This document shows positions 8,776-60,477 of a stretch of 64,000 nucleotides of DNA, piece by piece (position 1 is the first letter of the stretch; every line of letters begins with the position of its first letter). Origin of the DNA: Aquisphaera giovannonii (GTDB lineage Bacteria > Planctomycetota > Planctomycetia > Isosphaerales > Isosphaeraceae); the NCBI RefSeq assembly GCF_008087625.1, contig NZ_CP042997.1, positions 2,046,001 to 2,110,000 of the forward strand, in the 5' to 3' direction. Made by a program: the position numbers and the translations under genes. The notes under the pieces were generated by a model, which was not told the origin of the DNA, made no database searches, and was given only the letters and a program-made list of their open reading frames with translations.

Positions 8776-11700
8776 CTACGGACAAGTCCTCGCTATCCGG
8801 AATCCGATGAACGGCTCCTGGAGACTCGGGCGGTTCTGGTTGCGATATCGCGTCCGGACCGTGCGGGTATGCCCGCCGTAGTATCCGCCCCGGAGCATCG
8901 CCATGGGCGGATCGGCCGGGTCCGCGATGACGCACGGCTCGGCCCGGTCCACCTCGACGCCCGACGACGGCGTCCACGTGCGGAGGTAGCACCATTCGTA
9001 GACGTTGCCCAGGACGTCGAAGAGGCCCAGGTCGTTGGGCTGGAGCCGGCCGACCGGGTGGACGCGGCCCTGCGCGTTGCTCATCCACCAGGCGAAACGC
9101 GGCAGCAGGGCCCCGTCGTCGCCGAAGGGCCAGGTCGTCGCCGCGCCGACGGCGCAGCCGTATTCCCATTCGGCCTCGGTGGGGAGGCGGTAGCCGGTCC
9201 GGTCCAGGTAGTCGGCCGCGAGCTCCATCCCCGGGCGGATCTCGTCCGCCGGGGGGTAGCACATCTGGCACTCCGGCACCTGCTCCTGCTCGCTGAGCCA
9301 GCGGCAGTAGCGTGCCGCCTCGTAGTAGGAGACGCCGGACGCGGGCTCCGCGTCATCCTGGCCGCGAGGCTTCTCGGCCGCGCCGAGGGATCGGGCGAAC
9401 TGCTCCCGCGTGACCTCCTTGGTCGCCAGGGCGAAGGTCCGGGGGATCCGCACGGTCCAGTGCTGATCGGCGTCCGGATCGCCCGTCGCGAAGGTCACCG
9501 GCCCGCGGACGACCGCCAGCGTCTGGCGCTGGCCGTTGGTGTACCAGCCGCGGCCGGGCCGCGGATCCCTCGCGGCGAGCCGCGAGTCCTGGGCGTCGAC
9601 CGCCGCGCCGCGGCCCCATCGTCGCAGCAGCAGGTCGATCGCGGAATGGACGGCCGGGTCGGTCTCCTCGGCATAGGCCTCGAGCAACCCCGCCGCGAAC
9701 CGGTCCGCCTGGGCCGCGGGCACGTCCTCCGACCGGTACCGGCTCAGCGCGCGGAGCAGGCCCGTGCGGAGCGAGGGCTCCCCCTCGGCGGCGGCGGCGT
9801 TCATCAGCGTCAGCGGGTCGACCCCCGACGGCTCCAGCCGCTCGATCAGGTACTCGCGCACGGGCCCGCCGGCCCGCGACAGCAGGGGCCACGCGGGGCC
9901 GCCCCGCCCGAGGCCGATGAGCACCGTCGCCGCCGCGGCCCGCCGGCGGGTGTCGGCGAACCGCGGGGCGTCCTCGGCCGGCCCGGGCGGAGTGGCGGCC
10001 AGCAACTCCCGGCAACGCGCCTCGACGTCGGCGGCGCGGTCGCGAAGGGGGGGCAGGAAGGCGCGCGACTGCTGCGGATCCGCCTCCAACGCGAGGGGCA
10101 GCAGCGCGTCCAGGTCGTCGCCCAGGTAGGCGGCCAGCGCGGCGGCCGCGACCGACCGCTCCTCGGCCGATCGCTCGCCGTCCGCGAACGCCGCCCTCAG
10201 CGCCGGGACCATCGCCTCGCGCACATTCCTCAGCGCGTCGATCCACCCCGCGACCGCGAGCGGGCCTTCCGCGACCAGGGTCGCCGCCAGGTCCGGCGCG
10301 ATCGCGTACCAGTCGGGGCCCTCGGGGTCGTAGGCGGCCAGCGCCGCGGCGGCGCGGAGGCGCCGCTCGCGATCGACCGCGGTGTCGCCGAGGATCGCCC
10401 AGAGCGGCCCCTCCAGCCGCGCCGCGTGGGGCCGCAGCGAATCGCGGATGAGGACCAGCTCCTCCGGGTCGGAGTCCAGCATGAGCCCGACCAGGTCCTC
10501 CACCTGCCGCGGGTCGCGGGGCAGCAGCGCCAGCGACAGCCGGATGCGGAGCGGCCGCGACGCCGGGCCCGCCGCCCGCACCAGCTCTCGCCGCAGCATG
10601 GGATCCAGCCAGCGCATGAAGGGACCCGTCTCCAGGAGCACGGCCGGCATGTCGGACGTGCGGGCGACGAGCAGCCGATGGCGGAGCTCCGAGGCGCGCA
10701 GCCAGCCGCGGAGCTCGATGCCCGCGAGGGCCAGGCAGAGCAGGGCCGCCGCCACGATCAGGCCCCGCGTCGCGTGGTACCGCGCCGCGGCCCGCAGGAA
10801 CCTCGCCTGCTGGGGGGTGCGGTCGGCCCGCCGGGTGAGCAGCCCCATCCGGAGGAACTCGGACGCCGACGGCAGGAGCCTGCGACGCGGGTGCGCCGCC
10901 CAGAGAGCGGCCTGGTCCGAGAGGGCCAGCGCCGCACGCCCCTGGCGGGTCTCGCGCTGCTTGCGATTCAGCCACTGGCGGATCGAGGGGACCAGGTAGT
11001 CGTGCGTGAGCTGATAGCACCGGGAATCGCCCTCCTGCGGCCCGGCCGCGTCGGCGGGGCCGGCCGCCGGCGCGGGCTCGCGCTCCGTCGGCGTGACGAG
11101 CCGCAGCCGGGCGTCGAGCAGGTGGATCAGGCCCGCGAAGTCCCCCGGCCGGTCGGCGTAGCCGGAGCCGCCGCGGAGCTCCGCCGCGGAGCGCATCTGG
11201 CCCCGGATGTTCGTGCCGCTCTCGGGCAGCAGGGCCTTGAGGACGGCCTGCGCCGCCTCCTGATGCAGCCGATGTTCCGGGGGCGCGTGGGGCGAGCAGA
11301 AGGTCTCCTCCAGGTAGGTCACGCCGACCCCCTCGGGCCCGCCCGACGCCTTGAGGCTCGACGGCGTCCAGGGCCTGCCCTTGACCATCTCCGCGAAGAG
11401 GGCCAGCCGGACGGGGATGACCTTGCCGTCGTTGACCAGGCCGGCGATCGCCCGGTCGAGGAACGCCCGGTGGTCCGGCGTGTCCTCGGAGGCCTTCTCG
11501 GGCAGGGCCCCGTAGGCGCGGCCGAAGGCGGCGAGCACGCGTCGCGCGTGGGACGGCTCGAAGAGGTCGACGGCCGCCGTGTTCTCCCCCTCCACCAGGG
11601 GGGTCTCGATCTCTCGCAGGAAGCGGGTCGCCGCCATCCAGAAGTCGTCCCGGACCATGAGGATGGCCTGCACGTGCTGGCCGTCGCACTGCCGCATCGC

Positions 11701-13275
11701 GGCGACCAGCTCGTCCGAGGAGTCCTCGACCCTCCCGAAGAGCCACTGCTCGAACTGGTCCAGGACCAGCAGGACCTTCTGCCCCGACCGGAGCACCCGG
11801 CCCCTGCGGAGCGTCGTGACGCACTCGGCCAGCCCCCGCTCCGCCGGGAGGTCGGGGCAGGCCGCCCGGAGCCCCCGGAGCACGCGGGACTCGGTCTCGC
11901 CCGCGGCCGCCTCCGCGTAGACCGGGATCACGTGGGGGGCCAGGCGGGGCAGGAGGCCCGCCTTCACGAGCGACGACTTGCCGCAGCCGGAGGGCCCGTA
12001 GATCAGCCCCACGCCGAAGCCGGCGGCGGCGTCGGTCGCCTCGACGCGCCGCTTCCAGAACCGCAGCGACTCGGGGAGCCCGTCCCGGTCCCGGGGCCCG
12101 GGCAGGAGCCGGAGGAAGAACTCCGCGTCGTGCTGGTCGAACGACCGCAGCCCCTTGGGAACGATCCGGGTTGCCGCCTCCCCCCGGGCCCAGCTCGTCG
12201 TCGACGGGGCGTTCTCCGGTCCCGGATCCGTCGCGGCGGCGAGCCCCGCCGGCGCCGGCCGACCCGGGGCCGCGGCGGCGTCGGTCTCGAGGAAGTGCTT
12301 CAGGTCCTCGGCCAGGTCGCCCGCCGTGCGGTAGCGGTCGGACGCCCGCTGGGCCATCGCCTTCATGCAGATCCGCTCCAGCTCCCGGGGGACCGCATCG
12401 TCGACCTGGCGGGGCGGGCGCGGATCGGCGGCGATGATCTGCTTGAGCAATTCGGCGCGGGACTCGGACCGGAACGGCCTACGCCCTGTCAGCATCTCGT
12501 AGAGCACGACGCCCAGGCTGAAGATGTCCGACCGGCCGTCGACCCGATGGCCCTCGCCGCGGGCCTGCTCCGGGCTCATGTAGCCCGGCGTGCCGGCGAT
12601 CGGGCTCCCCTTGCCGTAGTCCTCGTCCCGCAGCGCCAGGCCGAAGTCGGCCACGCACGGCCGGCCGCCGCCGTCGATCAGGATGTTGCCCGGCTTGACG
12701 TCCCGGTGGACCAGCCCTCGGGCGTGCGCATGGTGCAGCGCCTCGGCGATCGCCGCCGTCCACCCGGCGGCCTCGCGGATCGAGGGGCGCCCCTGGGCGA
12801 GCCGCGTCGCCAGGTCGGCCCCCTCGATGTACTTCGAGACCACGTAGCAGGCCGCGTTCTCGGCCCGGCCCACGTCGTAGACCGGGACGATGTGAGGGTG
12901 ATCCAGCCTGGCCAGCATCCTCGCCTCGGCCAGGTAGGCCTCGACGTCCTCGGGGCGGAGGTTCCTCCTGGGGTTGGGGACCTTGATCGCGACCCGCCGA
13001 TCGAGCTCCGAATCGTGCGCGAGGTAGACCCGGCCGAAGCCCCCCTCGCCCAGCAGGCGGATCAGCCGATATCGGCCGATCTCGGCGCAATCCGTCGGGG
13101 CCATCAAGGGGGCCGAGCTCACGGTCACGACGCTCGGGTCCTCCCGACCCCGCCCCCCCAAGTCGGCCTGGGTCTCCTCGATCGAGGGGCCGCCCGTGAC
13201 CGACGAGCCCCCGTCCGTCCCGGGTGCCGGCCACTGCCCGGGCACAGGTTCGGCGGGCCGCGTCGGATCGTCCAT
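8776..13275 (-). CDS. Ser/Thr kinase - STAND ATPase - membrane - FGE-sulfatase-like fusion
   Basis: 1,499 residues from ATG 13275 (an in-frame ATG at 13320 is an alternative). Residues 67-330 are a Hanks-type kinase with all key motifs: G-E-G-G-F-G-R-V, K98 in V-A-I-K-V-P, H-R-D-V-K-P-G-N (190-197), D-F-G (210-212) and S-P-E. Residues 400-770 are an nSTAND-like NTPase with Walker A G-P-S-G-C-G-K-S (427-434) and Walker B L-L-V-L-D-Q-F-E-Q-W (501-510). A membrane helix follows at about 837-853. Residues 860-1260 are Ala/Leu/Arg-rich and look HEAT-like. The last 230 residues are an FGE-sulfatase domain (K-E-V-T-R-E-Q-F, R-L-P-T-E-A-E-W-E-Y, G-L-F-D-V-L-G-N-V-Y-E-W, G-F-R-I-A-R), which would lie across the membrane. 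I do not see the active-site Cys in R-T-R-Y-R-N-Q-N-R-P, so it may be a binding domain. Role: transmembrane signalling, ligand unknown. Confidence 0.9.
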   Translation of the reverse strand: MDDPTRPAEPVPGQWPAPGTDGGSSVTGGPSIEETQADLGGRGREDPSVVTVSSAPLMAPTDCAEIGRYRLIRLLGEGGFGRVYLAHDSELDRRVAIKVPNPRRNLRPEDVEAYLAEARMLARLDHPHIVPVYDVGRAENAACYVVSKYIEGADLATRLAQGRPSIREAAGWTAAIAEALHHAHARGLVHRDVKPGNILIDGGGRPCVADFGLALRDEDYGKGSPIAGTPGYMSPEQARGEGHRVDGRSDIFSLGVVLYEMLTGRRPFRSESRAELLKQIIAADPRPPRQVDDAVPRELERICMKAMAQRASDRYRTAGDLAEDLKHFLETDAAAAPGRPAPAGLAAATDPGPENAPSTTSWARGEAATRIVPKGLRSFDQHDAEFFLRLLPGPRDRDGLPESLRFWKRRVEATDAAAGFGVGLIYGPSGCGKSSLVKAGLLPRLAPHVIPVYAEAAAGETESRVLRGLRAACPDLPAERGLAECVTTLRRGRVLRSGQKVLLVLDQFEQWLFGRVEDSSDELVAAMRQCDGQHVQAILMVRDDFWMAATRFLREIETPLVEGENTAAVDLFEPSHARRVLAAFGRAYGALPEKASEDTPDHRAFLDRAIAGLVNDGKVIPVRLALFAEMVKGRPWTPSSLKASGGPEGVGVTYLEETFCSPHAPPEHRLHQEAAQAVLKALLPESGTNIRGQMRSAAELRGGSGYADRPGDFAGLIHLLDARLRLVTPTEREPAPAAGPADAAGPQEGDSRCYQLTHDYLVPSIRQWLNRKQRETRQGRAALALSDQAALWAAHPRRRLLPSASEFLRMGLLTRRADRTPQQARFLRAAARYHATRGLIVAAALLCLALAGIELRGWLRASELRHRLLVARTSDMPAVLLETGPFMRWLDPMLRRELVRAAGPASRPLRIRLSLALLPRDPRQVEDLVGLMLDSDPEELVLIRDSLRPHAARLEGPLWAILGDTAVDRERRLRAAAALAAYDPEGPDWYAIAPDLAATLVAEGPLAVAGWIDALRNVREAMVPALRAAFADGERSAEERSVAAAALAAYLGDDLDALLPLALEADPQQSRAFLPPLRDRAADVEARCRELLAATPPGPAEDAPRFADTRRRAAAATVLIGLGRGGPAWPLLSRAGGPVREYLIERLEPSGVDPLTLMNAAAAEGEPSLRTGLLRALSRYRSEDVPAAQADRFAAGLLEAYAEETDPAVHSAIDLLLRRWGRGAAVDAQDSRLAARDPRPGRGWYTNGQRQTLAVVRGPVTFATGDPDADQHWTVRIPRTFALATKEVTREQFARSLGAAEKPRGQDDAEPASGVSYYEAARYCRWLSEQEQVPECQMCYPPADEIRPGMELAADYLDRTGYRLPTEAEWEYGCAVGAATTWPFGDDGALLPRFAWWMSNAQGRVHPVGRLQPNDLGLFDVLGNVYEWCYLRTWTPSSGVEVDRAEPCVIADPADPPMAMLRGGYYGGHTRTVRTRYRNQNRPSLQEPFIGFRIARTCP

Positions 13276-13373
13276 GCGTCGGAACCTCGCGGAGGCCGGA
13301 CTTCCCGGGTGCCCCAACATCGTCTCGGCCGGGCACTCGGATGCCAGGATCGAGGCCGAAGGCACAAGCCTAC

Positions 13374-13402
13374 ATGGTAGAGAACATGCGGCGGTGGGGC
13401 AA
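13374..13402 (-). promoter_or_regulatory. Possible promoter of the kinase-STAND-FGE gene
   Basis: TTGCCC (13397-13402 on the minus strand), 17-base spacer, TACCAT (13374-13379). Each box matches 4 of 6 consensus bases, about 100 bases before the start codon. Confidence 0.35.
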
Positions 13403-13536
13403 TCCGGCAAGCCCTTGATGACCATCAGGCCGGCCCGCGTCGTTCCGGATTCTGGAGCGGGCAGTCGCCGCCCCGGCGCCCCGCGCGGCCGCGGGATGAA
13501 GGAAGCTGTGCGGTTCGGGGCATGCCCGCGGGAGTG

Positions 13537-50175: not shown

Positions 50176-53100
50176 ATGGCGGACGAGCGCGCCCGGCCCT
50201 CCCGGCCTTCCTGGAAGCGAGCAGGGGGCGATCCCCGGGCCGTCGAGCCGTCGTCCCACGCCTGGTCCCGGCGGAGCGTCTCCTCGGTCGCCCGCCCCGA
50301 TGCCCCCCGAACGAAGACCTGGAAGGTGGCCGGCGTGGTCGCGGCCCTGGCCGCCTGCATCGCGCTGATCCTGTTCCTGATCCTCGTCTTCCGCCCGCCC
50401 CGCCCCGCCGCCGTCGTGCTGGTGGGGGCCGACTACGCGGGCAACCTGGCCGTCCCGCACAACCTGCTGGGCTGGAAGGGGCTCCAGGGGCTGGAGGCGG
50501 TATCGAGGACGCCGCCCCGCTTCTCGCTCTTCCCGCCCCCGATGCTGCAGCTGGTGAGGGGCGGGGGCACGCCGCTGAACCTGGCCGAGGACTGGAAGGC
50601 CCTGGTCGACGACCTGAAGGTGTCCGCCAAGGGCTACCGGACGCTCCTGATCGCGGTCGCGCTCCACGGCGGCACGACCGCGGACTCGGCCTACCTGCTC
50701 CCCGGCAAGGCCACGGGGCGGGAGGCGGATCGGCTCGACCTGCTGCAGGTCATCCGGTCGATGGACGAGCTGCCGCAGGAGCAGAACAAGGTCCTGGTCC
50801 TCGAGGGCGCCCTCGTGCCGGCGGACTGGCGGCTCGGGATGCTCTACAACGACTTCGGCCGCCGGCTCAGGGACCTCGAGCCCGAGATCCGGAAGGTGAA
50901 GAACCTCTGGGTGCTCAGCGGCTGCGACGTGGACCAGCAATGCTGGGCGTCGGAGGGCATGGGCCGCACCGCGTTCTTCCACTACATCATCGAGGCCCTG
51001 AGCGGCGAGGCGGCCGGCCACGGCATGCGGCTGAACCTCCAGACGCTCCACGACTACGTCCGCCGCAAGGTCCGCAACTGGGCCTGGAACGCGCGGGGGG
51101 CCATCCAGGAGCCGGTACTCCTGCCGAGGACGGCGGACACGGCGGGGAGCGGCGGCGAGCCACCTCGCCGCCCGGCGGCCGGCGTCCACCTCGCCACGGC
51201 GGAGGCGGCCCCCGCCTCCGAGACCCCGCCGGAGCTCGACCGGACGATGCTGTCGGAGCGATGGCGGGCCTTCCACGAGCTGGACGGCCTGCTGCCCCAC
51301 CCCTCCACCTACTCGCCCCGGCGATGGCGCGAATACCGCGCGACCCTGGTCCGGCTCGAAGAGCTGGCCCGCGCGGGCGCCTCGGCCCAGCAGCTCGCGC
51401 CGCTGGACGAGCGGCTGGGCGTCCTGGGCGCCCGGCTCCGCGCCGACAGGTCCTTCGCGAAGATCACGGAGTCGCCCCAGCACAACCTCGTCATGGGCGT
51501 GGTCCAGGGGGCGGTGATCGACCCCAGGCGGGGGAGCGAGCCCGAATTCAGCCGGCTGTGGAGCCCGCCCCCGGGCACCGACCCGTCGAAGGTGTGGGAC
51601 GAGCTCCGGGGCAAGTTCCCGGACGGCGACGCCGAGCCGGCCCAGCCGCTCCGCTGCCGGGTCGACGACTACCTGCTTCAGCGGGCCGCCGCCGACCCGC
51701 AGCATGACCTCGCGACCGCGGTCGACCGGCTGAGGCAGCAGACGCGCGGCACGCAGTATCCCCAGCCGGTCGAGGCCCACTTCGCGGCCATGCTGGAGCG
51801 GTCCCTCCGCGGCGAGCGGGCCCGCCCCCAGGCCTTCTGGCCGCGCGTCCGGCGGGCGCTCCTGGTGCGTCGCCTCGCGGAGCGGGTGACGCTCGGCATC
51901 CCGGAGGGCCGGCCCGGCTATGCCGCCAGCGAGCGGCTCGCCCCCTGGCTCCGCGAGCTCGTGGACCGGGCCGACGACCAGCGTCGCCTCGGCGAGGACC
52001 AGCTCCTCGCCTCGGACGAGGCGGCCTGGGCCCGCGCGGATCAGTCCCTGGCCGCCGCGGAGCAGCTCTACCGCGAGGCGTCCTCGCGCGGCGAGCTGGT
52101 CCGCAAGGCGATCCTCGCCCGCGACCTCGCCCTCTCGACGCTGCCGGACTACGCCCGGTGGATGGGGCGTCGCCGGCCGGAGGACCTCGGCAAGGACGAC
52201 CTCGCCGCGGTGGTCCTGGAGCTCTGGGACCAGGTGCATCGCCTCTCCGATCGCCTGGAGGCGCCGGGCGAGGAATCGGCGGCCTCGCTCGAGAAGCTCC
52301 AGAAGGGACTCTCCACGGGCCTGGAGGCGCTCGGCAGGCGGTTCCGCCAGCACGCCGGCGGCCTGGCGGGTGATCGTCGCCCGGAGGAGTGCGAGCCCAC
52401 CGCGTCCGCGGCGGCCGTGCCGTTCGCCGACGCCGCGGAGGACTCGCTCCGCGGGGCCCTCTGGGACCGACTGGACGCCATCCGGAAGCATGACCGGAAG
52501 CTCTCCGAGGGCGGCGATACCCCCGAGCCGGCGGCGGCCGACGCCGACCGCGTCGCCGACTCCCTCCGCCGCCGGAGCCGCCTCCAGGGACGCATGGCGA
52601 TGGCGACGCTCGGGCGCGACCGGTTCGACGCGCCGGCGTTCAAGGATGCCCCCCCGTTCGATCAGGTCCTCAAGCGGATCGAGAGCGCCTTCGAGGAGGG
52701 CGGCCAGCAGGCCTGGTGGCGGTCCATCGCCGAGGCCGGGGACGCGATCGGGCTGCGATGGCGGGGCCTGGGCCCCGAGGTCGAGGGCCTGACGAAGGAG
52801 GAAGGTCCCGACGCCGACCCGGCGCGGCTCCTGACCAGGCTCTCCCTCGCCGAGCGCCTCGATCGCCTGATCGACGGGGGCGAGGAGCCGCTCCCGGACT
52901 CCCGGCCCGAGGCCGCGTCGCTCGGCCGCGGGCTGCGGATCCGCGGCCTCCTGCTCTGGCTGGCCGAGCGAGCGTGGCGAGACCACTGGTTCGACGAGGA
53001 TCCGAAGGCCGTCTCCCCCTATTACCGCACGGTCGCCACGCGGCTGGTCGGCGACGCGGCCCGGATCGCCGCGAAGGGGCCCGACCTCGCGCGCATCCGC

Positions 53101-55338
53101 CAGCTCGTGGCCAGGAACGATCGCCTGAAGCTCGAGGGCCCTTCGAAGATCATCATGACGACCGAGCCGGCCGCCGACGCCACCTACCGGATCGCGGCGG
53201 AGGGGGATCCGGAGTCCATCCCCCCCGGCCTGCCCGTGATCCGGCCGCGCGTCGAGCCCGAGCTCGGGCTCCTCGACGGCGCGGCGGGGTACCGCCTGGC
53301 CCCCTGGCGGACCGGCGGCGACGTCGCCCGCTTCTCCGTGTCCTCGGCGACGATCCGCTCCGCGGAGTCCGACGAGTCCATGGACCGGCCCTTCATCCGG
53401 ACCTCGCCGCTCCTGATCGAGGGCGTCTTCCGCGGCCAGCTCTTCACCAAGCGAACGGACGTGGAGCTGCACCCCGTCCCCGACGAGGTCTCGGTCAACC
53501 CCGCCCCGGTCGACCCCCGGGCCAGCCTGGCGGTCCGGGCCGACGGCGAGCTGCTCGCCCGCTTCGGCGCCGGCAGCGGGTCCATCGCCATCGTGCTCGA
53601 CATGTCCGGGAGCATGAGGGAGCCGACCCCCTCCGGGCGTTCGAAGCTGGCCGAGGCGAAGATCGCCCTCGGCCAGGTCCTGGAGATCATCCCCGCGGGG
53701 ACCACCGTCAGCCTCTGGACCTTCAGCCAGATCGGCGCCAAGGAAGCCGACCTGTTCGAGGACGACCCGAGGCACCTGGCCCCGGAGAAGACCATCCAGC
53801 GCCTCAGGGAGCCGGTGCGATGGGACCGGGCGGAGCTCCCCGGGCTGGTCGCCCGGCTGGAGGCGTACCGGCCGTTCTGCGACACCCCCCTCGTGGAGGC
53901 CATGTGGAGGGCGGCCGCGACCGACCTCGGGAAGGCCCAGGGGCTGAAGACGCTGCTCGTGCTCACCGACGGGAATGACACCGAATTCCAGAAGCATCGC
54001 GAGTTCAACCCCTTGAAGGACGGCAAGCCGACCTACAAGGACATCCCGGAGTTCATCCGCACCGCCTTCGACCCGACCGGCGTGCAGATCAATATGATCT
54101 ACTTCGACACCGCGAGCGACGGCGGCAAGCAGCTCGAGGAGGCCAGGAAGAACTTCGAGGAGCCCCTGAGGGGCCTCGACCGGCCCGGCACGTTCACGGC
54201 GGTGAAGGACGTGGATCAGCTGCTCGCGGGCCTGAAGAAGGGGATCCGCCAGGAGCTGGCCTGCCGCATCCGCGACGAGGCCGGCAAGCCGGTGTCCGAG
54301 GAGCTCCTGGGCGTCACGCGGGTCGGCGAGCCTGACCGGTGGTGGCCCGACGGGCTGGACGCCGGCCTCTACACCCTCAGCGTGCTCGCCGACCACACCT
54401 ACGAGCACCAGGTGGAGCTGAAGAAGGGCGAACGCCTGCTCGTCAGGCTCGTGGACGCCGGCGGGAAGATCGACTTCCGTCGCGACCTCTACAGCGGCGA
54501 CTTCGCCGACCGGGCCGCGGAGGATCGCTCGGAATGGCGGGCGAGCGGCCTGGCGACCGTCATCCCGGCCCAGCAGGCCGGGGACCGGATCCAGGTCCTG
54601 GCGTCCCTGGAGCAGACGGCGATGAGGGTGCCCGACCCGGATCCCATCCGTCAGGTCCACCCCAGGATGAGCTGGATGCGGCTCGCGGCGCAGGGCATCC
54701 CCAATCCCTCGGGCGCCTTCTCGACCCGGTGGCGCGACCTGGGCGAGTATCCCGCGCCGGCCTGGGTGGCCGACGTGCCGCGATGGCCGCGGGATCCCGC
54801 CGGCGCCGGGCCCGCGCAGCCCGTGCTCCGGATCTGGTGGCTGGCGCCCGGCCTGAAGGACCGGTCCCTCCCGGCGATCGCGCTGGACGGCGACCTGCCG
54901 CGCCGGCTCCGGCTCGCCGACGGCGAGGAGGTGGTGCTCGAGGGCCTGGGGATCGAAAGCCACAAGGTCGAGGTGAGCCCGGGCAGCCGCGTCGATAGGC
55001 GCTGCCTCGCGATCCGAATCGCGTACCCCAAGGATCAGCTCCACATCGTCGACCCCAGGAGCCTGCTCGCCGCGGGCATCGGCACCGAGGGCGCCGAGCT
55101 CCGGATCTTCTCCCGGGCCCGTCGCTCCACCGCGCTCCTCTGGCCGGTCAGCGAGACGAGCCTCGACGCGCTCAAGTCCGTCGGCCTGTACCCGGTGGAC
55201 GAGCTCCTCAAGCTGGCCGAGAAGCAGCAGACCGCCGCCGCGATCACGCTGCCGATCCCTCGGCGAGGGAACCTGCCGGAGCCCCCGCCGCCGCTGCGAG
55301 ACCCGCGCAGGCCCCTGGGGCCCCCGGCGCCGGGATGA
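50176..55338 (+). CDS. Giant membrane protein with caspase-like head and VWA domain
   Basis: 1,720 residues. A basic N-terminus and one membrane helix at about 51-73 are followed by a caspase-like domain: L-I-A-V-A-L-H-G-G-T-T-A-D-S-A-Y-L-L-P (His164) and N-L-W-V-L-S-G-C-D-V-D-Q-Q-C-W (Cys250), the order of the p20 catalytic dyad; W-x-S-E-G and F-F-H-Y-I-I-E-A-L follow as in bacterial metacaspases. A long helical region (about 350-900) is rich in Arg, Leu and Glu. A VWA domain occupies about 1136-1330 with the MIDAS D-M-S-G-S (D1142, S1144, S1146) and L-V-L-T-D-G-N-D-T. The rest to the end is mixed beta-rich. VWA domains bind metal and protein partners. Whether the caspase dyad is active is unknown. 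A same-strand partner gene follows. Confidence 0.82.
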   Translation: MADERARPSRPSWKRAGGDPRAVEPSSHAWSRRSVSSVARPDAPRTKTWKVAGVVAALAACIALILFLILVFRPPRPAAVVLVGADYAGNLAVPHNLLGWKGLQGLEAVSRTPPRFSLFPPPMLQLVRGGGTPLNLAEDWKALVDDLKVSAKGYRTLLIAVALHGGTTADSAYLLPGKATGREADRLDLLQVIRSMDELPQEQNKVLVLEGALVPADWRLGMLYNDFGRRLRDLEPEIRKVKNLWVLSGCDVDQQCWASEGMGRTAFFHYIIEALSGEAAGHGMRLNLQTLHDYVRRKVRNWAWNARGAIQEPVLLPRTADTAGSGGEPPRRPAAGVHLATAEAAPASETPPELDRTMLSERWRAFHELDGLLPHPSTYSPRRWREYRATLVRLEELARAGASAQQLAPLDERLGVLGARLRADRSFAKITESPQHNLVMGVVQGAVIDPRRGSEPEFSRLWSPPPGTDPSKVWDELRGKFPDGDAEPAQPLRCRVDDYLLQRAAADPQHDLATAVDRLRQQTRGTQYPQPVEAHFAAMLERSLRGERARPQAFWPRVRRALLVRRLAERVTLGIPEGRPGYAASERLAPWLRELVDRADDQRRLGEDQLLASDEAAWARADQSLAAAEQLYREASSRGELVRKAILARDLALSTLPDYARWMGRRRPEDLGKDDLAAVVLELWDQVHRLSDRLEAPGEESAASLEKLQKGLSTGLEALGRRFRQHAGGLAGDRRPEECEPTASAAAVPFADAAEDSLRGALWDRLDAIRKHDRKLSEGGDTPEPAAADADRVADSLRRRSRLQGRMAMATLGRDRFDAPAFKDAPPFDQVLKRIESAFEEGGQQAWWRSIAEAGDAIGLRWRGLGPEVEGLTKEEGPDADPARLLTRLSLAERLDRLIDGGEEPLPDSRPEAASLGRGLRIRGLLLWLAERAWRDHWFDEDPKAVSPYYRTVATRLVGDAARIAAKGPDLARIRQLVARNDRLKLEGPSKIIMTTEPAADATYRIAAEGDPESIPPGLPVIRPRVEPELGLLDGAAGYRLAPWRTGGDVARFSVSSATIRSAESDESMDRPFIRTSPLLIEGVFRGQLFTKRTDVELHPVPDEVSVNPAPVDPRASLAVRADGELLARFGAGSGSIAIVLDMSGSMREPTPSGRSKLAEAKIALGQVLEIIPAGTTVSLWTFSQIGAKEADLFEDDPRHLAPEKTIQRLREPVRWDRAELPGLVARLEAYRPFCDTPLVEAMWRAAATDLGKAQGLKTLLVLTDGNDTEFQKHREFNPLKDGKPTYKDIPEFIRTAFDPTGVQINMIYFDTASDGGKQLEEARKNFEEPLRGLDRPGTFTAVKDVDQLLAGLKKGIRQELACRIRDEAGKPVSEELLGVTRVGEPDRWWPDGLDAGLYTLSVLADHTYEHQVELKKGERLLVRLVDAGGKIDFRRDLYSGDFADRAAEDRSEWRASGLATVIPAQQAGDRIQVLASLEQTAMRVPDPDPIRQVHPRMSWMRLAAQGIPNPSGAFSTRWRDLGEYPAPAWVADVPRWPRDPAGAGPAQPVLRIWWLAPGLKDRSLPAIALDGDLPRRLRLADGEEVVLEGLGIESHKVEVSPGSRVDRRCLAIRIAYPKDQLHIVDPRSLLAAGIGTEGAELRIFSRARRSTALLWPVSETSLDALKSVGLYPVDELLKLAEKQQTAAAITLPIPRRGNLPEPPPPLRDPRRPLGPPAPG

Positions 55339-55437
55339 CCGGCCCTCGGCCCGAGCGTCCCCGCGGACGAGGCCCGACGAAGTGACCCGAGACGGAGCCC
55401 ATCGGATGAGGCGGACCGCCGCCGCAGGAGCGAGACG

Positions 55438-58400
55438 ATGACCAGGCCTTCCACCACGGGGCGCGGCCGATGGCGGGACGCGGGAGCCGCGACCCGCACG
55501 CGGCCGTCGGGGCCCACGAAAGCAGGCAAGGGGCTGCTGGCGGCCCTGGTCTCCGCGATCGTGCTCGCGACGGTCGGATTCCTCGGATTCCTCATCTACA
55601 TCTTCGTCTTCGGCCCGGAAAATCGGACGTCCCTCATCCCCTTCCTGGTCACCTCGTATCGGAGGGATCAGATCTCGCCGGTCCCGGGGGCCGCGGCCGA
55701 GCGGCGGGCGATGGCCGCGACGGGCCTCCAGCTTCGCCACGATCCCCTGGACGCCGACGGCGACCTCACCCTGGAGAACTTCGCCACCAAGCTGAACAAC
55801 CTCCGCGGCGAGAAGCCCGCGGTGCCGATCGTGGCCTACGTTTCCGCGTACGCGATGGTGGACGAAGCGGGCCGGGTCCAGATCCTCGCCAGCCGGTCCG
55901 ACCCGTTCTCGGCCGACTCCATGCTCCCGCTCGGCCAGGTGCTCAGGGCCCTTCGCGAGTGCCCCTCTCGCCAGAAGCTGCTGATCCTGGACATCATGAA
56001 GCCCACGAGCGACCCGCTGGACCTCGGCGGGACCCCCGACGGGGTCGCCGACGCGGTCCCCCTGGAGGTCGCCGCGGCCGCCGTGGGGAAGGAGCAGGGG
56101 GGCACCCCGCCGCTCGTGCTCGTCGCCTGCTCGCCCGGCGAGACGGGGCTCTGGTCGGAGCACCTCGGCCGGTCGGTATTCGGCCATTTCTTCGCCGGGG
56201 CGTTCGCGGACACGAAGGCGGACCTGGACGGGGGCGGCACCCTCTCCGCCTCCGAGCTCGAGAAGTACCTCGCGGAGAGGGTGAATGCCTACGCGCGCAA
56301 GACCCGAGGCGTCACCCAGCGCCCGTACCTGATCGGGGACGGCGACTTCTCGATCGGTGCGATCGTCCCGGCGGCGGCATCGGCCCCGGTCGCCTCCCGT
56401 GCGGCGGACAAGGACGCACCCGCCGAGGAGGCCGCGGGCGGCGACCCGGCGAAGTCCGCCGAGAAGGGAAAGCCCGCGGCGACGGCGGTCGCGAAGAAGG
56501 ACGAAGGCTCGGCGGCCGCCCCATCGGACGGCCTCGCCTACCCCGATTGGCTGAAGAAGGGCTGGGAGCTGAGGCGGGACTGGTGGGCCGACCCGACGAC
56601 CGGCAGGTTCGCCGGCGCGGCGTCCCCTCGGGCCTTCCGCAGGCTCGGGGCGATCCTCCTCCGCGCCGAGGCCCGGTGGCGATCCGGCGACGACCCGGCC
56701 GCCGTCGCGGCCGATCTCCAGGCGGGCGTGGCGCCCCTCGTCGAGGCGATGAACCACGACCGGGCCGTCGACGGCCCCTCGGCCATCCGCTCGGTCGGGC
56801 AGGCCGTGGCGGGCGGTTGGAAGCCGGACGCCGCGCTGGTCTCCAGGCTCCGCGTGCTCCTGGACGACCTCCGGAACTCGGACCAGCCCGCCGATGCGGA
56901 TGCCGCGGCCGCCCGCAAGAAGGCGGCGGGCGAGCTCGCCGCCGCGATCAAGGCCAGGCCGAGGCCGTCCCTGGAGCTGGCCGGGATCCTGATCGAGGCC
57001 ACGTCCGGCGTCCGCCTCATCCCCGACACGTTCCGGCTCCTCGACGGCCTGATCCGGGACAGCGGCGCGAAGGCGGACATCGTGGAGCTGAGGCTCTTCC
57101 AGGACCTCGCGGTGCGGGCCACGGCCCCTCCGGCCGAGTGGCCCGACGAGGCCGCCGAGGCCGCCAGGCTCGCCTGGGATTCGCTCTGCCTCGCCGAGCG
57201 GGCCGCCCACCATCCCTCGGCGTTCCCCTGGACCGCCGGCCTCCTCGACCACGCCGACCGCGCCCGCCACGAGGCCCGCGTGCTGCTCCTCGCCGACGTC
57301 CGGGGATTCGACTCCTGGCGGGGCGTGCAGGAGGCCTGGAGCAGGGCGGCGGAGGAGCTGAGGAAGGCGGACGACGCCCAGACGCTCATCGAGGAGGCGC
57401 GGACCGAGCTCGACCGGTCGCGGACGCTCCTGTCGGATGACCTCGCGTTCCTCCAGGCGTCGGGCCGGCCCGGGCTGGAGACGGCCTGGCACGAGGCGGC
57501 GAGGGCGTCGGCCGAGGTGGCCCACATCCTGGGGCCGGCGCGCGACGGCAAGGCCGACCCGGGCGACGGAGCCGGGCGTCCCCCGATCGAGACGCTGCTG
57601 AACGAGCTGGAGCCGGCGCTCCGCGCGCTCCGGGCCGGCGACGAGGCGCTGCTGCGGCCCTTCACCGACGAGGCGATCCGCGAGGCAATCGCCCGCACCG
57701 AGGCGGCGAGGCCCGACCCGAGGGCGGCGGCGGAGATCGACGCCCTGCTCGCCAGCCCCTTGCCGCCGCCCGACGCCAGGCCGCGGCTGATCGCCGCCTG
57801 CCGGGCGCTCGATGCCAGGCTCGCGGCGTCGGCCCAGGCCTCCATCCCGGACGCGGCGGAGGCCGCCGAGGCCGGCAGCGCCGCCCGGCTGGAGCAGGCT
57901 CGCCCGCTGGTCGTCCGCCGGGCCAGGCGGCTCCAGACGCTCCTCTCCCTGCTGGGCGAGGAGGCGCTCGCCAGCAACCTCTGCGCGGGCGTCGAGCTGG
58001 AGCCGGAGATCCGGTCGATGGCGGGCGGCTCGGCCTCGACCGCATCGACGCCGGGGGAGGTCATCGTCAAGCTCTGGGGCAGCCACGCCCGGATAGCCGC
58101 GGCGGCCTGGTGCCGGCTGAATGCCCTTCTGGAACGGTCGGAGCGGGGCGACGACGCCGCGGGCTGGATCGCCCCGCCGTTCCTGCCGGTCGTGACCGCG
58201 AACCCGCGGTACGCGGCCAGGCAGGCCGAGTCGCAGCGACACGGCCGCTGGCTCGCCGCGCGATACGTCCAGGAGGAGCGCGACCTCCACGAGCGCATGG
58301 CCCCCGCCCGATTCTACGAGGAGGCCGCGGCGGAATGCCAGGGCCACGAGGACGCGGCCGCGCCGGCGATCGAGCTCGGCCTCGCCTCCGCCGCGACCCC

Positions 58401-60477
58401 GACGCTGTCCTCGTCGGGCGGCTTGAGCGTCGGCGTCAGGATCGCTCTCATCGGCGGGCCGGGTGCCACCGCCCAGGCGAGGGTCGCCGTCCATACGCCC
58501 GGCGACGGCCGCCTGAAAGTCCAGATGGCCCAGGAGGAGCCGGTCGATTTGAGCTCGCTGAGCCCCGCGGTCGTCAACCTCGAGCTGCGATGGGACGAGG
58601 ACGGCGGGCCGGTCGACCGGGAGCCCCCGCCCGGATTCCTGTTCGAGGCCACCCTGGCCGACGGCCGGGCGTTCCACCTCAAGGTCCCCATTCGCATCGA
58701 GTCCGGCCGGATGCTCCCCTCGTTCGCCGTCGTCCCGAAGGACGGCGACGCCGTCGGGGTGCCGCTCGACCCGTTCCGCCTGAGGACGCTCCCCGGCCGG
58801 CAGCCGTTCCAGCTCTCGCTCCGGAACCCTTCGCCTCGGGCTCGCGAGGTGAAGGTGGAGCTCATGGCCGGCGACGCCGTCCTGGCGAGCACCGGCGAGA
58901 AGCCGATCCCGCTGCCCGGGAACTCGACGGTCCCGGTCAAGGCCCTCGCACCGGCCTCGGCCGGGATGACGCCCCCCAAGGAGAACGAGCCGCTCATCGA
59001 GGCTCCCGCCGCACTCCGCCTGCGGATGAGCGAGCCCGCCGCGGGCGGCGGCGGACTCGTCGTGGTGCAACCGATCCGCCCGGAGATCGCCAACCCGGCC
59101 GACTACGTCGGCGTCATGCTGGCCCAGTTCACGCCGGAGTTCCAGGGCCAGCCGAATCAACTCAAGCTGGTCTTCCGCGCCCTGCCGGGGATGACCGGCC
59201 CGCCCTGCCAGGTCGAGCTCGTCCTCCCCGCCGACCGGGCCCTGTTCCCCGCCCTCCTCAGCCCCGAGACGGCGGGCAAGCGTGCCGACCTGCTCAGGAA
59301 AGGCGACGACCTCACGCTCGTCGCCGAGGGCCTCCGGCTCGATCCCGGCGTGGCCCAGCAGAGGGGCAGCTTCCAGGTCAACCTCGACGGGGTGAAGAGG
59401 GCGCTCTGGTATCAGGCGCAGTTCAACAACGCCGGCGGCGTCGAACGCGCGGTCGTCGAGGCCGCCCCGCCGCGCGTCCGGTTCCGCACCGAGCGGACCG
59501 TGAAGCCGAACGAGTCCACCGACCTCCGGGTCTTCTACCAGGTGGACAAGGCGCCGGCGAACTCCCGGCTAACCTTCGCGCTGGGCCGTCCCGCCGCCGG
59601 GGGCTTCGCGGCCGACAAGGAGGCCGAGCCGCGGCCTCCCCGGCGCAGCCACGTCGGCCTCGCGGTCGGCGACGGCGGCGTGCTGCTCTTCGAGGCCGCG
59701 GTCGAGGACTGGGCCGACGCGTATCGCCTGAACATCCGAGGCAAGCGTCTGGCCGTCGCGCGGCTGCTCGACCCGGCCGGCCGGGAGCTCGACCGCTACG
59801 AGGAGGAGCTCGTCCTCGACGATCAGCCGCCGGCAATCAGGGAGATCGCGGTCCCCCCGGAGGTTGAGGACGGGGGCGCACCGTTCGACGCCCGGATCGT
59901 CGTGACGCCGCCCGTCTCGGGCGTCAGGGAGGTCGTGTACGTCGCGGGGCCGAAGGCGCTCGACGACGCGGAATTCGCGAAGGCCCACGCCGAGAAGAAG
60001 ACGGCGCAGGCCAGGCGCTCCGGGGGCGACCGCGAATGGATCGCCCCGGTATCAATCCCGAAGGACGCGACGGGCCGCCTCTTCATCACGGCGAGGGCGG
60101 AGAGCGGCGTCGGGCTGACGGGGCTCCGCGGCGACGTCGTCAAGATCCGCCCCCGCCCCGCCCCGGCCGACGACATGGCCGCCAAGAAGAAGGACCAGCC
60201 GCCCGCCCCGGGGGCCATCGAGGGGACGGTCATCGAGGCCGGGTTGCCGCAGCCGAACCTGCGGGTCCTCCTGATGAACGAGAAGGAGAAGGACCCGGCG
60301 AAGGCCGTGGTGAAGAACACAACGACCGACGACGACGGCAAGTTCAAGCTCACCGATATCGCGCCGGGCGAATACTACATCTACAGCATGAACGACGTCT
60401 CCAAGCGTTACTACTACAAGCCGGTCAGCGTACCGCCGGGCCAGACCGCGACGCTCAAGATGGAGCTCCTTCGCTAA
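55438..60477 (+). CDS. Giant membrane protein with degenerate caspase-like head and carboxypeptidase-regulatory-like tail
   Basis: 1,679 residues. Basic N-terminus and one membrane helix at about 33-58, as in the preceding protein. A caspase-like segment at about 100-300 keeps the order of the family: V-A-Y-V-S-A-Y-A-M-V-D-E replaces the S-G-H-G of the catalytic His, while L-V-L-V-A-C-S-P-G-E keeps a Cys at 231; D-L-D-G-G-G-T-L-S-A-S-E-L recalls the acidic loop of caspase-like proteins. The middle 900 residues are helical and Ala/Arg/Glu-rich, then beta-rich domains; residues about 1593-1679 form a carboxypeptidase-regulatory-like beta domain with D-D-D-G-K-F-K-L-T-D-I-A-P-G-E-Y. Probably a pseudo-protease paired with the previous gene (98-base gap). 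Confidence 0.78.
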   Translation: MTRPSTTGRGRWRDAGAATRTRPSGPTKAGKGLLAALVSAIVLATVGFLGFLIYIFVFGPENRTSLIPFLVTSYRRDQISPVPGAAAERRAMAATGLQLRHDPLDADGDLTLENFATKLNNLRGEKPAVPIVAYVSAYAMVDEAGRVQILASRSDPFSADSMLPLGQVLRALRECPSRQKLLILDIMKPTSDPLDLGGTPDGVADAVPLEVAAAAVGKEQGGTPPLVLVACSPGETGLWSEHLGRSVFGHFFAGAFADTKADLDGGGTLSASELEKYLAERVNAYARKTRGVTQRPYLIGDGDFSIGAIVPAAASAPVASRAADKDAPAEEAAGGDPAKSAEKGKPAATAVAKKDEGSAAAPSDGLAYPDWLKKGWELRRDWWADPTTGRFAGAASPRAFRRLGAILLRAEARWRSGDDPAAVAADLQAGVAPLVEAMNHDRAVDGPSAIRSVGQAVAGGWKPDAALVSRLRVLLDDLRNSDQPADADAAAARKKAAGELAAAIKARPRPSLELAGILIEATSGVRLIPDTFRLLDGLIRDSGAKADIVELRLFQDLAVRATAPPAEWPDEAAEAARLAWDSLCLAERAAHHPSAFPWTAGLLDHADRARHEARVLLLADVRGFDSWRGVQEAWSRAAEELRKADDAQTLIEEARTELDRSRTLLSDDLAFLQASGRPGLETAWHEAARASAEVAHILGPARDGKADPGDGAGRPPIETLLNELEPALRALRAGDEALLRPFTDEAIREAIARTEAARPDPRAAAEIDALLASPLPPPDARPRLIAACRALDARLAASAQASIPDAAEAAEAGSAARLEQARPLVVRRARRLQTLLSLLGEEALASNLCAGVELEPEIRSMAGGSASTASTPGEVIVKLWGSHARIAAAAWCRLNALLERSERGDDAAGWIAPPFLPVVTANPRYAARQAESQRHGRWLAARYVQEERDLHERMAPARFYEEAAAECQGHEDAAAPAIELGLASAATPTLSSSGGLSVGVRIALIGGPGATAQARVAVHTPGDGRLKVQMAQEEPVDLSSLSPAVVNLELRWDEDGGPVDREPPPGFLFEATLADGRAFHLKVPIRIESGRMLPSFAVVPKDGDAVGVPLDPFRLRTLPGRQPFQLSLRNPSPRAREVKVELMAGDAVLASTGEKPIPLPGNSTVPVKALAPASAGMTPPKENEPLIEAPAALRLRMSEPAAGGGGLVVVQPIRPEIANPADYVGVMLAQFTPEFQGQPNQLKLVFRALPGMTGPPCQVELVLPADRALFPALLSPETAGKRADLLRKGDDLTLVAEGLRLDPGVAQQRGSFQVNLDGVKRALWYQAQFNNAGGVERAVVEAAPPRVRFRTERTVKPNESTDLRVFYQVDKAPANSRLTFALGRPAAGGFAADKEAEPRPPRRSHVGLAVGDGGVLLFEAAVEDWADAYRLNIRGKRLAVARLLDPAGRELDRYEEELVLDDQPPAIREIAVPPEVEDGGAPFDARIVVTPPVSGVREVVYVAGPKALDDAEFAKAHAEKKTAQARRSGGDREWIAPVSIPKDATGRLFITARAESGVGLTGLRGDVVKIRPRPAPADDMAAKKKDQPPAPGAIEGTVIEAGLPQPNLRVLLMNEKEKDPAKAVVKNTTTDDDGKFKLTDIAPGEYYIYSMNDVSKRYYYKPVSVPPGQTATLKMELLR

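Follow-up and report, generated by a model that had tools for sequence, protein, structure and literature searches.

The closest described counterparts of the gene reported here are STAND-FGS proteins, which together with S/T/Y-kinase effectors and DGR links have been proposed as candidate counter-invader systems (Kaur et al. 2021, PMC8195603). In addition, STAND-CLec sensors of multicellular bacteria are diversified by DGRs (PMC10907252), FGS domains with DGRs have been described in ternary systems (PMC7159879), and DGRs have been surveyed more generally (PMC8144416). Cyanobacteria have DGR kinase-CLec proteins (PMC7517822), and planctomycetes have kinases that span the membrane once and carry a periplasmic FGE domain (PMC11032199).

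The window analysed here is a stretch of 64,000 nucleotides (C1:2046001-2110000) from the 10.5-Mb genome of Aquisphaera giovannonii, which consists of three contigs. The gene at 8776..13275 on the minus strand encodes a protein of 1,499 residues (ATG at 13275, stop at 8776-8778), and the GC content per codon position in this frame fits a real coding gene. An alternative ATG at 13425 would add 50 residues in frame at the N-terminus (13276..13425, minus strand) and result in a protein of 1,549 residues; the relatives compared become similar only from about residue 45-65 of the 1,499-residue form onward. The preliminary description had read the frame as a fusion of a kinase, a STAND ATPase, a transmembrane helix, a helical-repeat region and an FGE-like domain, and the fusion is real. 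All parts were found in that order by Pfam (hmmscan; Pkinase with an E-value of 3e-45, nSTAND1 1.6e-17, FGE-sulfatase 2.4e-33), hydropathy and AlphaFold. Full-length relatives with the same order of parts recur across the Planctomycetota, and the fusion is therefore not a chance assembly. The genome encodes four full family genes, namely the window gene (100% self match) and three paralogues with 40-49% identity to its protein, one of which is located on contig C2 (131,698 bases). Elsewhere in the window (50176-60477, plus strand) there are two very large adjoining ORFs of 1,720 and 1,679 residues, one with a weak VWA match and the other with a CarboxypepD_reg domain at its end.

Like the STAND-FGS systems (PMC8195603), the window protein combines a central STAND NTPase with intact Walker A and B motifs (nSTAND1 is named in that paper), a C-terminal FGS domain of CLec fold and an N-terminal effector, which is a kinase here and possibly an S/T/Y kinase there. 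Both also occur in multiple copies per genome, and in both some members are linked to a DGR. In contrast to these systems, a transmembrane helix and a long solenoid are placed between the NTPase and the FGS domain, which is predicted to lie outside. There are also no EAD adaptors or conserved effector genes near the family, such extra neighbours being typical but not universal in STAND-FGS systems. A DGR association, which is frequent but again not universal there, is found for the relatives at our loci L072, L073, L064, and L089 and not for the window gene. The planctomycete single-spanning Ser/Thr kinases (PMC11032199) belong to the same phylum and share the cytoplasmic kinase, the one transmembrane helix, and the periplasmic FGE-type domain. 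A STAND ATPase, a solenoid or a DGR is not part of their description in the text available, which contains zero matches for the whole word 'stand' and for words beginning with 'ATPase' or 'P-loop'. The cyanobacterial serine kinase-CLec proteins (PMC7517822) have an N-terminal Hanks kinase, a C-terminal DGR-diversified CLec domain and dispersed paralogues as well, but unlike the window family they are mostly predicted to be cytosolic, and 'NACHT' has zero matches in the available text of that paper. In the literature available to us we found no description of the exact kinase-nSTAND1-TM-solenoid-FGS family, or of a DGR in it, although supplementary domain lists may contain it. The parts and most of the pairings are thus already published, and as far as these sources go the combination is new among STAND-FGS systems.

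Taken as a whole, the protein is probably a receptor kinase that crosses the membrane once and has an NLR-like architecture, with an outer FGS sensor and a STAND-gated kinase. At the C-terminus, a HEAT-like solenoid carries the FGS domain, whose C-type-lectin fold resembles that of TvpA; this domain would be located outside the cytoplasmic membrane and bind a ligand. Its outer location is suggested by the conserved helix and the charge bias around it, and ligand binding by the fold and by the diversification through DGRs that this surface shows in sister proteins. The signal would then be relayed via the transmembrane helix to the cytoplasmic nSTAND1 module, which might oligomerise with ATP given its membership in the STAND class. 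Such clustering could join the N-terminal Hanks kinases, allow their activation in trans, and lead to the phosphorylation of presumed cytoplasmic targets.

The kinase domain comprises residues 69-314 (12334..13071, minus strand; Pfam 3e-45) and is of the Hanks Ser/Thr type. The family alignment, to which relatives from the searches were added and from which known duplicates were dropped, contains 55 proteins including that of the window. In all 55 aligned members the glycine loop (G76/G78), the VAIK lysine (K98), the alphaC glutamate (E117), the HRD aspartate (D192), the asparagine (N197), the DFG aspartate (D210), and the APE-type glutamate (E236) are invariant, and the same is true for K194 and D250. 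The kinase had been credited with all catalytic motifs before, and with this set it looks active. The STAND NTPase with its C-terminal helical arm follows at residues ~370-830 (10786..12168, minus strand; Pfam, AlphaFold, and Foldseek). Pfam nSTAND1 matches residues 375-555 with 64.7 bits against a cut-off of 27.1. According to the alignment column counts, K433 of the Walker A motif GPSGCGKSS (11971..11997, minus strand) as well as D506 and E509 of the Walker B motif LDQFEQW (11743..11763, minus strand) are present in 55/55 members. R542 and H758 are also invariant (55/55). These data bear out the nSTAND-type P-loop ATPase that had been noticed from the sequence. The AlphaFold model of residues 330-900, built with 38 sequences, has a mean pLDDT of 86, and its Foldseek matches are ORC/Cdc6-type ATPases, CED-4, and plant NLR resistosome chains. 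A related nSTAND1 protein of 669 residues (L150:3788-5794) has no Pfam kinase match, lacks the solenoid and the FGS domain, and ends in a hydrophobic C-terminal segment.

The part behind the helix was modelled with AlphaFold as residues 858-1499, using 31 sequences, and the model (mean pLDDT 92.1) consists of an all-helical solenoid of ~376 residues followed by the FGS domain. The helical repeat region of the preliminary description is thus a HEAT-like alpha-solenoid between helix and FGE domain (residues 858-1233; 9577..10704, minus strand). It matches designed alphaRep proteins by profile and importin/CAND1-type solenoids by Foldseek. The FGS domain of C-type-lectin fold extends over residues 1243-1499 (8779..9549, minus strand; Pfam FGE-sulfatase, profile, and fold). 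Its best match in the PDB is TvpA (Treponema denticola variable protein 1, PDB 2y3c), a DGR variable protein of 294 residues without kinase, ATPase, or solenoid. Searching with the ectodomain profile, TvpA was found with 1.2e-52, PvdO with 4.2e-36 and the best FGE with 4e-31; by fold, TvpA is the top Foldseek match (9.3e-12) and there is no FGE among the best 50 matches listed. The tail at residues 1458-1493 (8797..8904, minus strand) is equivalent to the variable region of TvpA and of the DGR members, with no DGR match in the window gene. Median identity to the window protein is 62% for the kinase, 61% for nSTAND, 50% for the STAND arm, 29% for helix plus solenoid, and 38% for the FGS domain. 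Among the soluble parts, highly variable columns make up the largest share in the solenoid and in the FGS tail. Variability of the tail is equally expected of any surface loop, and we count this against the receptor reading.

Diversification of the FGE-like domain by a DGR had been suspected in the preliminary description; this holds for relatives, based on codon skew and adenine bias, but not for the window gene, which has no template match. A search for the nearby reverse transcriptase (RT) gene found none in the window, and all five RVT_1 matches of the genome are located elsewhere on the chromosome. This absence alone is not decisive because other DGRs have remote targets. The genome does contain a complete DGR (L105:5538-9294, corresponding to G000 C1:9251.5-9255.3 kb) with an FGE-fold target, an HRDC protein, an RT, and a template. 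The target is a 533-residue FGE-fold protein distinct from the window protein, and it differs from the template at 15/128 positions, 14 of them at template adenines. Besides itself, the template matches at E<1e-9 its target (C1:9253700) and, more weakly, a site at C1:9812423. The window gene does not appear among these matches and showed no match when aligned with the template either. Compared to the relative from Aquisphaera insulae, the tail codons of the window gene have 8 synonymous and 26 non-synonymous changes, with no non-synonymous excess over the rest of the gene (p 0.35). DGR targeting of the window gene was thus rejected on three grounds, namely the missing template match, the missing nearby RT, and the synonymous changes in the tail. 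Near the own-genome DGR and transposase-like ORFs, tandem 25-base units are found at L105:4764-4854.

Among the relatives, L072 and L073 belong to one Pirellula metagenome-assembled genome, and what is left of an HRDC gene and an RT gene, the same in both cases, lies directly downstream of them. Both RTs are truncated, the receptor gene of L073 is split over two frames, and a template repeat was not found on these two stretches. Their tail codons contain 0 synonymous and 14 non-synonymous changes compared to 350 and 203 elsewhere (p 1.1e-6). For L064 and L089, from one Planctomicrobium genome, the numbers are 1 and 15 compared to 181 and 134 (p 4.1e-5), and for the between-genome pair L056/L264 the skew is weaker, with 3 and 16 compared to 452 and 541 (p 0.0099). 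The tail differences in the L072/L073 and L064/L089 pairs are mostly at codon positions 1 and 2. All of ten control pairs, the window gene included, retain synonymous changes at 6 to 17 tail codons, with p-values from 0.035 to 1, the lowest being that of L034/L035 and pointing toward more non-synonymous changes. Aligned to the L214 template, which is from another genome, the tail of L064 has mismatches at 16/28 A versus 7/88 non-A positions and that of L089 at 20/30 A versus 8/88 non-A positions. A 3' nucleotide stretch is common to five of 213 loci (L064, L072, L073, L089, and L206), of which L206, an RT match at G425:C113, appears to be the same region as L073 again. More DGR-type tails are present in the same genomes, for example in the full member L264. 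The DGR-bearing relatives are metagenome-assembled genomes. The RTs were assigned to the DGR type because of the adenine bias and the pairing of template and variable repeats, not because of a family model; NCBIfam has no model naming a DGR-type RT, and the matches are to group II and antiviral RT models below threshold. RT matches occur in 9 of 19 genomes, a non-random sample that was picked for holding family members. DGR-tailed members are found at three separate places in a quick tree, so that the trait was repeatedly acquired or lost, or it moved.

In the phylum, DGR-type RTs (E<=1e-60) are found in 19 of 392 genomes, and an FGE-fold ORF is located near 14 of the 20 RT loci analysed (phmmer with the window protein), out of 22 places outside its own genome. 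Neighbours of these RTs include kinase-FGE, kinase-NACHT-FGE, and metallophosphatase-NACHT-FGE proteins; kinase-NACHT-FGE and kinase-FGE proteins are located, for example, at L191:8850-12545 and L181:4094-7027. In the L056 genome, an intact DGR is adjoined by a gene that looks TIR-like by eye. The region L214:4066-7280, on the contig of this DGR, covers the apparent TIR-like gene and another DGR variable region within an FGE-fold protein. As judged from codon changes and repeats, the family would contain members with a fixed sensor, like the window gene, and members with a DGR-hypermutated sensor tip. The wider proposal of a receptor class, in which an NLR-type STAND switch sits on a membrane-spanning kinase and fixed and hypermutable sensors coexist in one family, is tentative and leans to the doubtful side.

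As a special case of the receptor reading, the protein could be a membrane STAND-FGS anti-invader receptor, whose FGS domain would recognise phage or competitor surface molecules and whose kinase would act as growth-arrest or suicide effector. We regard this as a serious possibility that falls somewhat short of an even chance. It is in line with the proposal of STAND-FGS proteins with S/T/Y-kinase N-termini as counter-invader systems (PMC8195603), with the DGR-diversified STAND-CLec sensors (PMC10907252), and with the DGR signature in family members, and the DGRs of the phylum also adjoin the metallophosphatase- and kinase-NACHT-FGE proteins. The several paralogues per genome, with one on contig C2, and the patchy distribution fit as well. 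At E<=1e-30 the family is present in 11 of 40 relatives, some of the matches not being full-length genes, and at E<=1e-80 in 11 of 392 phylum genomes, the own genome counted in both cases. A scan of genome contigs resulted in 71 loci with matches, and 48 ORFs from the scan and the own-genome loci, duplicates counted, passed the full-length filter. Where the taxon is named, all loci matching beyond the kinase are planctomycete, and a few are titled only 'bacterium'; the matches of three Clostridia/Oscillibacter loci are confined to the kinase region. Members of about 2,000 residues are encoded at L139:447-6833, L143:5588-11599, L039:2946-9161, and L053:2266-8475, those of L139 and L143 having ~500 extra residues from the start of the solenoid to the FGS domain. 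The surroundings of the genes speak against an anti-invader function. The window gene is not part of a defence island but has ordinary neighbours (aldolase, polysaccharide deacetylase, glycosyltransferase, RNase III, exchanger, and sigma-70). Clustering of 261 neighbouring ORFs of the family loci did not reveal a generally recurring operon partner, the largest cluster comprising 8 loci with a piece of a family paralogue as example and the second largest being an ECF-type sigma factor (5 loci), and an extra EAD or effector gene was found neither beside the window gene nor recurrently among these ORFs. The PADLOC matches were discarded as uninformative because they are confined to the kinase domain and belong to broad models.

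To about the same degree, and thus not quite on an even footing with its opposite, the protein could be a sensor kinase with an environmental or developmental role, responding for example to extracellular glycans. Its output would be transcriptional, and the DGR of some relatives would tune the range of ligands instead of serving immunity. An ECF-type sigma factor adjoins the family genes at five loci (L049, L067, L080, L081, and L087), and there is an additional ECF-type sigma match upstream of L052. This link concerns a minority of the loci and is absent at the window gene, so that a transcriptional output is possible for a few members. The interpretation of the cyanobacterial DGR serine kinase-CLec proteins as regulatory tuning (PMC7517822) and the common presence of periplasmic accessory domains on planctomycete Ser/Thr kinases (PMC11032199) also agree with an environmental role.

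In the receptor proposed here, a single transmembrane helix at residues 835-853 (10717..10773, minus strand; hydropathy) lies between the kinase and the accessory domain, as in single-pass planctomycete receptor kinases. The segment is the one hydrophobic segment of the window protein (Kyte-Doolittle 2.08), and values above 1.6 are found at the equivalent place in 48 of the 55 members, so that the membrane helix of the preliminary description withstood the check by hydropathy. The seven members below this cut include the own-genome paralogue L010 (1.33); the DGR member L072 is also below it (1.59), and L073, which is outside the 55, reaches only 1.36. It seems improbable that the segment is instead a buried helix of the STAND arm, in which case the protein would be wholly cytoplasmic and the FGS domain would sense intracellular molecules like the cytosolic NLRs do. 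The seven members would fit such an arrangement, as would the position of the segment within a long model helix (residues ~821-870) and the predicted cytosolic location of most cyanobacterial DGR variable proteins (PMC7517822). However, the columns of the segment have a mean entropy of 2.79, and those of the adjoining STAND arm one of 1.55. The sequence is variable beside a conserved arm, and thus hydrophobicity and not sequence seems to be conserved. In addition, K/R residues flanking the helix are more numerous on the N side in 32 of 55 members, less numerous in 9, and equal in 14. Conservation of the helix and this bias fit a predicted N-in/C-out orientation, which agrees with the survey of planctomycete kinases, whose sulfatase-modifying FGE domains are mostly predicted to be periplasmic (PMC11032199).

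The preliminary description had also noted that the FGE domain lacks the expected active-site cysteine, and no FGE-like cysteine appeared after alignment. A C-x4-C motif within the last 60 residues is present in 0/55 members (L061 ends at the contig end before the tail), and the family profile lacks the three-residue insertion on which FGEs carry the cysteine motif. FGE (SUMF1 and bacterial FGE) is of the same fold family, but the window family has neither its cysteine pair nor its insertion. Sulfatases are abundant in planctomycetes and the domain carries the Pfam name FGE-sulfatase (116 bits), but with the cysteines and their insertion missing, TvpA and not FGE as closest solved relative by profile and fold, and the equivalent surface hypermutated in DGR members, an enzyme for formylglycine generation or of the PvdO/EgtB type, through which the protein would regulate sulfatase maturation, is highly improbable and was rejected.

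If the receptor reading is true, planctomycetes would have a receptor kinase with a switch of the NLR/apoptosome class and an outer sensor that is either fixed or hypermutated. It would become testable how a binding event at a lectin fold reaches a STAND ATPase and a kinase on the other side of the membrane, and the same receptor would be available in matched versions, fixed and DGR-diversified, for comparison. On the wider proposal of a receptor class, bacteria would own both an innate-like and an adaptive-like version of the same membrane-spanning receptor kinase.
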